Origin: Alphaproteobacteria bacterium
Lineage (GTDB): Bacteria > Pseudomonadota > Alphaproteobacteria > JAEULC01
Direction: 5' to 3'
DNA: 64,000 bases
Assembly: GCA_023150455.1 (NCBI GenBank)
Contig: JAKLKW010000006.1
Span: 43,051-107,050, forward strand
Shown: positions 4,077 to 62,879 of the stretch, in pieces
How positions within the stretch are numbered: the first letter of the stretch is position 1
Layout: the number at the start of each line of letters is the position of its first letter
Notes under the pieces: model-generated
The model's input: only the letters and a program-made list of their open reading frames with translations
Databases searched by the model: none
What the model was told of the DNA's origin: nothing
Translations under genes and position numbers: made by a program

Positions 4077-4186
4077 CACGCGGAGAACGCGGAGACGCGG
4101 ATGAAATTGGCGCCCCGGCGGTCGGTTTCGGTCCGCCTTTGCGGATGGGAGGGCGATTCGCTCCGCGTTCTCGGCGTCTCCGCGTG
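4077..4186. repeat. Intergenic inverted-repeat element (CGCGGAG-iterated arms)
   Basis: 5' arm cacgcggagaacgcggagacgcgga; 3' side ctccgcgttctcggcgtctccgcgtg; lies between ureD and the 3-hydroxyacyl-CoA dehydrogenase gene. Confidence 0.75.
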
Positions 4187-60497: not shown

Positions 60498-61751
<1,254 letters not shown>

Positions 61752-61761
61752 GGTCGAAAAA

Positions 61762-61885
61762 AAGATGAACCGCAGAGGCACGGAGACACAGAGATAGGAA
61801 GAAGAGAGGATTCTCTGGCGGCCCAAGGCTGCCTTGAACTCCTTTCTTTCTTCCTTCACGTCTTCGTGCCTTCGGGGTTCATCTT
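61762..61885. repeat. Long intergenic inverted repeat A
   Basis: 5' arm aagatgaaccgcagaggcacggagacacagag...; 3' arm ...cttcacgtcttcgtgccttcggggttcatctt. Confidence 0.88.
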
Positions 61886-61890
61886 CAGAA

Positions 61891-61982
61891 TTCACCACGA
61901 AGGCACGAAGACACGAAGGTAAGAGGAAGGAAGCTTCTTCTCTCTTCCTCTTACCTTCGTGTCTCCGTGCCTCTGTGGTGAA
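61891..61982. repeat. Long intergenic inverted repeat B, adjacent to and related to A
   Basis: 5' arm ttcaccacgaaggcacgaagacacgaaggtaagaggaag pairs with 3' arm cttcctcttaccttcgtgtctccgtgcctctgtggtgaa: 39-nt arms with 3 mismatches. Confidence 0.92.
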
Positions 61983-61991
61983 TCTTCTTGC

Positions 61992-62879
61992 TCAACCCGC
62001 AAAGCGCGGCTCGCGCAGGCCTTTGACCCCCGGCACCCGCAGCGCGAAGACGCCGCCGTCCGGGTCGGAGAGGGTCGAGGTCGGCCGACGCAGCGTGGTA
62101 ACGTAGATCGTATCGAACTCGAGCCCGCCGAAGGCGGGCATGGTCGGCCAGGCGACCGGCAGCTTCACGGTCATGTCCAGCTTGCCCGCCGGCGTGAAGC
62201 GCATCAGCGAGGCGCTGTCGATCGCCGCCATCCAGTAGCAGCCGGAGGCGTCGATCGCCGCGCCGTCGGGCCTTCCCTGCATGTCGTGGGTGTCGACGAA
62301 GACGCGCGTGTTGCTCAAGCGCCCATCGGCCGGGTCGTGGTCGCTGACGAACACGCTGCGCACCGTTCGGTGCGTCTCGGCGTGGTACATCCTCCCGTTG
62401 TCCGGGCTGAAGGCGATGCCGTTCGAGATGATGCGGCCGGGGATCTTCCTCTCGATGCGGCGATCGGGCGTGAAGCGATAGATGGCCGAGCTCGCGCGCA
62501 TCGGCTCGATCGGGTCCTTCATGCTGCCGACCCAGAAATTGCCGGCGCGGTCGCACTTGCCGTCGTTGAGCCGCGTGTCGGGGATGTCGGCCTCGGGATC
62601 GACCAGCGGCTCGATCGCGCCTGTGTCCGGGTCGAAAAAATGCAGGCCCGTGCTCATCGCCAGCAGCACGCCGCCTTGCCGGCGCAGCGCGAACGAGCCG
62701 AGCGGCGCTGGCAGGGGCCACGAGCGGCTGGCGCAAGTGGCCGGGTCGTAGCGGTTGAGCCGGCAGCGATAGATGTCGGCCCAGAAGAGCGCCTGCTCGC
62801 GCTCGCACCAGACCGGGCACTCGGCGACCAGCGCCTTGGCGTCGACGACGCAGTCGACCGGCGGGGAAAGGACGCTCAC
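61992..62879 (-). CDS. SMP-30/gluconolactonase family protein
   Basis: GTG start at 62879 overlapping upstream stop: VSVLSPPVDCVVDAKALVAECPVWCEREQALFWADIYRCRLNRYDPAT...; LNDGKCDRAGNFWVGSM; ISNGIAFSPDNGRMYHAET; GRPDGAAIDASGCYWMA. Confidence 0.94.
   Translation of the reverse strand: MSVLSPPVDCVVDAKALVAECPVWCEREQALFWADIYRCRLNRYDPATCASRSWPLPAPLGSFALRRQGGVLLAMSTGLHFFDPDTGAIEPLVDPEADIPDTRLNDGKCDRAGNFWVGSMKDPIEPMRASSAIYRFTPDRRIERKIPGRIISNGIAFSPDNGRMYHAETHRTVRSVFVSDHDPADGRLSNTRVFVDTHDMQGRPDGAAIDASGCYWMAAIDSASLMRFTPAGKLDMTVKLPVAWPTMPAFGGLEFDTIYVTTLRRPTSTLSDPDGGVFALRVPGVKGLREPRFAG

Follow-up and report, generated by a model that had tools for sequence, protein, structure and literature searches.

The repeats dispersed in bacterial genomes include palindromes and heptamers, the cyanobacterial STRR being one of the heptamer families. 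Among the palindromes, REPINs or BIMEs are short, intergenic, arranged in inverted pairs and present in many ORF-less copies per genome, and one or a few genes for a cognate enzyme, the HUH tyrosine transposase RAYT (TnpA-REP), are associated with the repeat (PMC3116915, PMC2817692, PMC8266576). In 23S rRNA intervening sequences, a small ORF encoding the S23 four-helix bundle (PF05635) lies inside a long hairpin element, and in Coxiella the 7-mers GACAGAT adjoin an S23-type ORF (PMC4990558). As for heptamers near gene ends, PMC4692102 describes GGGAATC in Xanthomonas, often as arrays in inverted pairs, and GGGGA(C/T)T in Nostoc, and PMC4679880 describes TAACTGA repeats in Beggiatoaceae. MITEs, lastly, lack an ORF and share their ends with the ORF-bearing element from which they derive.

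This study concerns a stretch of 64,000 nucleotides (here referred to as the window) from a 5.86 Mb draft genome, in which the gap between argG and an SMP-30 gene contains two long hairpins. These are probably (at a rough probability of 0.68) an ORF-less copy belonging to a family of small selfish elements that carry a GxxExxY gene (PF13366/TIGR04256), multiplied in trans by the encoded putative nuclease. No description of a link between GxxExxY/PF13366/TIGR04256 and these repeats was found in the open-access literature.

Results

Structure of the element at argG

With argG (PF00764/PF20979) ending at 61751 and the minus-strand SMP-30 gene (PF08450) at 61992, the element occupies most of the 240-nt convergent gap, as the initial annotation had described. 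The two related hairpins that it placed back-to-back in this gap are both real. Positions 61891-61929 pair with 61944-61982, giving the expected 39-nt arms with 3 mismatches around a 14-nt loop; no other hairpin in the 64 kb has 39-nt arms with 8 or fewer mismatches. The DNA fold of 61891-61982 reaches -40.6 kcal/mol (z = -13.4), a value that none of 200 shuffles attained. The fold of 61762-61885 has a z of -6.5, and the RNA fold of the whole gap one of -14.1. The hairpins are not separate elements, as had been supposed, but together form one composite unit with the order A> <B' B> <A', of which the genome holds at least nine copies including that in the window; the others are on contigs C128, C181, C231, C44, C36, C172, C252 and C261 (the last truncated by the contig end). 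The features in the window are as follows:

61762..61982, no strand: whole composite element A> <B' B> <A', ORF-less; same architecture at a minimum of 8 further genome loci, fold z about -14
61762..61810, plus strand: A arm, AAGATGAACCGCAGAGGCACGGAGACACAGAGATAGGAAGAAGAGAGG, three 8-nt units and a purine tract; identity to the carA/carB GxxExxY element 43/48 (left end) and 44/48 (right end)
61817..61833, no strand: GC-rich mini stem-loop GGCGGCC-CAA-GGCTGCC within the first hairpin, from the RNA fold; other copies have GC stem-loops of different sequence in the same place
61839..61885, minus strand: B' arm, read on the minus strand as CCCGAAGGCACGAAG; 39/42 positions shared with the hairpin that adjoins the GxxExxY gene of trpF/trpB
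61891..61930, plus strand: B arm, beginning TTCACCACGAAGGCACGAAGACACGAAGG; identity of 35/36 with one arm and of 35/37 with the other arm of the trpF/trpB hairpin
61944..61989, minus strand: A' arm, read on the minus strand as AAGATTCACCACAGAGGCACGGAGACACGAAGG; 41/45 identity to the end of the carA/carB GxxExxY element
4077..4186, no strand: second family member in the window, a CGCGGAG-type hairpin with arms CACGCGGAGAACGCGGAGACGCGGA / CACGCGGAGACGCCGAGAACGCGGA; unit common to the GxxExxY element on contig C60

The arms indeed consist of iterated units, namely the 7-mers CACAGAG/CACGGAG in A and CACGAAG in B, and the units are by position largely consistent across copies. The A' arm matches the first A arm in inverted orientation at 82% over a length of 50 nt, and within each hairpin one arm is of the A type (CACAGAG, the unit in the carA/carB GxxExxY element) and its partner of the B type (CACGAAG, the unit next to the trpF/trpB GxxExxY gene). 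Aligned copies keep the order A B' B A'. The mismatches thus reflect the two arm subfamilies, A and B, and not decay of one arm, so that the G/A transitions by which the arms had been thought to diverge are not borne out. Both halves of a composite copy also hold a GC-rich segment whose sequence varies and which often forms a mini stem-loop, and the copies often begin 3-15 nt past a stop codon (by crude ORF calls). The inner B' B pair might conceivably represent a junction of joined ends, as in a circle. Within the window, CACGAAGACACGAAG (at most 2 mismatches) occurs five times against 0.14 expected, each time inside the argG/SMP-30 gap. A search of Rfam with the window element returned no model at gathering score and just sub-threshold ones, mostly microRNA precursors, which are expected of any long hairpin.

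Copies in the host genome and their GxxExxY genes

The hairpins had been proposed to belong to a repeat family, and further copies are indeed abundant: the pattern ACCACNRAGN{1,3}CRCNRAGN{1,3}CRCNRAG has 47 exact matches in the host genome, compared with 0 for the reversed control pattern of the three-unit array. The list of host copies was built from pattern and BLAST matches and is therefore a lower bound. A subfamily of CACCAAG-type hairpins is present on contigs C8, C27, C36, C123 and C231, for which no matching GxxExxY gene was found in the host.

What the initial annotation, which rightly saw a dispersed, mobile-looking repeat family, overlooked is the link with GxxExxY. All three PF13366 genes of the host are in or beside these repeats, at carA-carB, at trpF-trpB and on contig C60 (carB and trpB were assigned by inspecting gene starts, trpB also by a PF00291 match). 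The window A arms are 41/47 to 44/48 identical to the ends of the carA/carB element and the B arms 33/38 to 35/36 identical to the trpF/trpB hairpin, i.e., the window arms are about 87-97% identical to arms linked with two of the three genes. The window copy has the inverted arrays without the gene, and its ends are common to an ORF-bearing element of the same genome, the relation that ties a MITE to its IS. A full element measures about 450-610 bp and consists of inverted repeats of iterated 7-mers around one GxxExxY gene, with the repeat consensus CRCNRAG, spacers of 1-3 nt, and usually ACCAC or ACCGC at the outer edge.

Gene-repeat linkage across phyla

A wider set of 80 GxxExxY loci came from a species-level genome collection (Proteobacteria, Cyanobacteria, Chloroflexi, Planctomycetes, Bacteroidetes, Verrucomicrobia, Acidobacteria, archaea, and others). 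The score for inverted repeats between upstream and downstream flanks exceeded the 99th percentile of position-shifted controls at 55 of the 74 testable loci, and an inverted CRCNRAG pair was present at 50 of these 74 but at 0 of 214 shifted controls. A second set of 80 loci, consisting mainly of paralogues from these genomes, raised the total to 150 unique loci, 119 of which scored above the control maximum of 28, almost all of them with repeats built of iterated units; the remaining 31 had no clear inverted repeat. The occurrence in unrelated bacteria, which the initial annotation had mentioned for intergenic regions, thus holds for many phyla and extends to some archaea. Genomes contain up to 15 GxxExxY copies, and at 53 of 94 loci the gene and its two neighbours all run in one direction (crude ORF calls), which fits expression from host operons. 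Among 72,556 plasmids, 7 encode a relative of the protein, as do 6 among 2.9 million viral contigs, and carriage by plasmids or phages was accordingly rejected as the usual vehicle.

Among 299 genomes of the phylum, PF13366 is present in 39, arrays in 38 and both in 25 (25/14/13/247, Fisher p = 2e-17). The association is also found outside family f65 (p = 8e-4), and within f65 the array copy number is higher in genomes with a PF13366 gene (p = 0.0015). The 13 genomes with arrays and no PF13366 gene may have lost the helper or match by chance, and in three of them the arrays are confined to a single strand, as tandem repeats would be; for the 14 with the gene and no array, the pattern covers the ACCAC type only.

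Two variants were seen along the way. A group of GxxExxY loci from Bacteroidota (L128, L143 and L374) has a different end motif, GCTACTCTTTATACACAT. At locus L111 (1221-2351), GxxExxY continues in frame through the right repeat into the downstream ORF, giving an open frame of 377 aa whose tail presumably resembles precorrin-8X methylmutase; this is possibly a fusion made by the element.

The repeat unit tracks the protein clade

LLES-type GxxExxY proteins are accompanied by CRCNRAG units and GF.E-type proteins by CRCNRAT/A (82/2 vs 0/18, counted before removal of duplicates). The deepest split of the protein tree (support 100/99) separates 76 CRCNRAG and 0 CRCNRAT rows from 22 CRCNRAT and 1 CRCNRAG rows, counts that are not independent events because relatives share state. 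Both unit types coexist within single genomes (G345, G371, G383 and G387), each GxxExxY with its own arms, so that the match is not explained by host background.

The protein, of about 130 aa, is predicted to be a PD-(D/E)XK nuclease with a Cas4/lambda-exonuclease fold. Residues E35, D75, E85, K87 and Q99 are invariant, and the pattern E...D...ExK...Q of this superfamily is present in 49 of 49 sequences. A structure model (pLDDT 93) has the Cas4 nuclease SSO0001 and lambda exonuclease as its best PDB matches, though at Foldseek E-values of only about 1e-3, and Pfam and PADLOC match Cas4 weakly.

Filled and empty sites

Comparison with relatives revealed that sites filled in some congeners are empty in others. 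In the host genus, the argG gap is without the element in three congeners, and two further sites on contig C231 (one composite, one single hairpin) are without it at the orthologous sites of congeners, including one near-clean empty site in G002. The trpD-trpC junction was compared across a single genus: G080, G062 and G048 have no element there and their genes overlap by 4 bp (ATGA), G143 and G340 have 23-27 nt only, read as remnants, and most of the other genomes carry inverted repeats with GxxExxY. These comparisons run between species, so gain and loss are indistinguishable per site. Direct repeats flanking 117 loci were no longer than in shuffled pairings, i.e., there was no target-site duplication (TSD) above control and hence no classical transposition footprint. 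The argG gap of the congeners G002 and G003 (L084 and L085) carries other palindromes, CCCGGGCTTGTCCCGGGCAT and CATCCTGAGCTTGTCGAAGGATG, which suggests that this gap is a preferred place for hairpin elements.

Discussion

The data establish that gene and repeat are linked, that the repeat unit matches the protein clade and that orthologous sites differ in occupancy; how the element spreads is inferred. The clade-unit match suggests that GxxExxY binds the iterated 7-mers, and the fold and invariant active site suggest that it would cut or resect at the repeats or at hairpins extruded from them. The element may then be copied by host repair into a new place, mostly just past a stop codon or between operon genes, and ORF-less copies such as that in the window would be multiplied in trans, as is thought for REPINs by RAYTs.

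The alternative that survives best, although unlikely, is that GxxExxY is a guardian and not a mobiliser, which binds or trims extruded hairpins while the repeats spread by replication slippage and gene conversion. The lack of a TSD agrees with this, a Cas4/lambda-exonuclease-like fold suits end trimming, and TnpA-REP has been described as a domesticated transposase (PMC8266576); however, a gene inside the repeats, multiple copies per genome and empty sites are as expected of a selfish element. Quite improbable is that the repeats are regulatory hairpins of the host, i.e., bidirectional terminators or mRNA stabilisers, with the GxxExxY gene as a passenger. The window copy between convergent genes and its very stable RNA fold would suit such a role, but many copies are inside operons between co-directional genes (trpD-trpC, carA-carB and trpF-trpB), where a terminator would be harmful, the same sites in congeners are without repeats, and a passenger gene leaves the match of unit to protein clade inside a single genome unaccounted for. 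That the hairpins are REPs moved by a RAYT-like (Y1) transposase of the host, beside which GxxExxY merely inserts, is very improbable in spite of four PF01797 genes in the host and a REPIN/BIME-like architecture, since none of the four is flanked by a repeat (the nearest array is about 1.2 kb from one of them) as opposed to three of three GxxExxY genes, and since the match of arms to GxxExxY clade would stay unexplained; RAYT was thus rejected as the repeat partner.

The selfish GxxExxY element would offer a functional hypothesis for a widespread protein family with a merely descriptive name, and would account for the origin of a common type of intergenic hairpin; the repeats also give predicted proteins spurious peptide tails, such as MTTETQRHREE. 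Its mobility is directly testable: a single small protein and a defined array are involved, sites occur naturally in both the filled and the empty state, and specificity switches between RAG and RAT from clade to clade. If mobility holds, this would be a mobile element with a stand-alone PD-(D/E)XK nuclease as its only protein.

Comparison with known systems

PF05635 genes, of the same size class as GxxExxY, have CRCNRAG arrays at 0 of 28 loci and are a valid control for this sequence. As regards flanking inverted repeats they cannot act as a negative control, since 19 of the 28 score higher than any control used for GxxExxY; at loci L226-L255, the genes are inside inverted arrays of other 7-8-mers (GTAGGCA, GTGAGTA, GTGAGGG, GCGAATG and GGGATTC), and this looks like a parallel system. 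It is tentatively proposed, at somewhat less than even odds, that GxxExxY elements are one branch of an unrecognised class of minimal mobile elements, in which one small protein (a Cas4-like nuclease or, in the parallel branch, the PF05635 four-helix bundle) is situated inside inverted arrays of the 7-mer that it recognises, and which would spread by cut and repair without transposase, TSD, or plasmid/phage carriage, giving rise to many of the intergenic hairpins that are so far unexplained in bacteria and some archaea.

Compared with MITEs, whose relation to an ORF-bearing element they share, GxxExxY elements have no detected TSD and no transposase of a known IS family. The dispersed heptamers have other sequences, and the accessible parts of PMC4692102 and PMC4679880 name no linked protein. 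The rRNA intervening sequences differ in their unrelated protein, their other 7-mers and their location in rRNA, whereas GxxExxY copies are in the neighbourhood of protein-coding genes. With respect to REPINs, the enzyme is a PD-(D/E)XK nuclease instead of an HUH transposase, the repeats are 7-mer arrays with 1-3 nt spacers, and the full element comprises a gene with inverted ends. Of the REP end tag (a 20-40 bp palindrome with GTAG or CGTC), the window element has no GTAG and a single CGTC that is not at an end, its arms being iterated 7-mers ending in ACCAC; together with the lack of any flanked PF01797 gene, this sets the GxxExxY repeats apart from REPIN/RAYT. GxxExxY elements are probably a form of mobile palindromes with a cognate enzyme, and there is a real chance that they make up a class of their own; by analogy their nearest known counterparts are REPIN/RAYT (PMC3116915) and the rRNA intervening sequences (PMC4990558).
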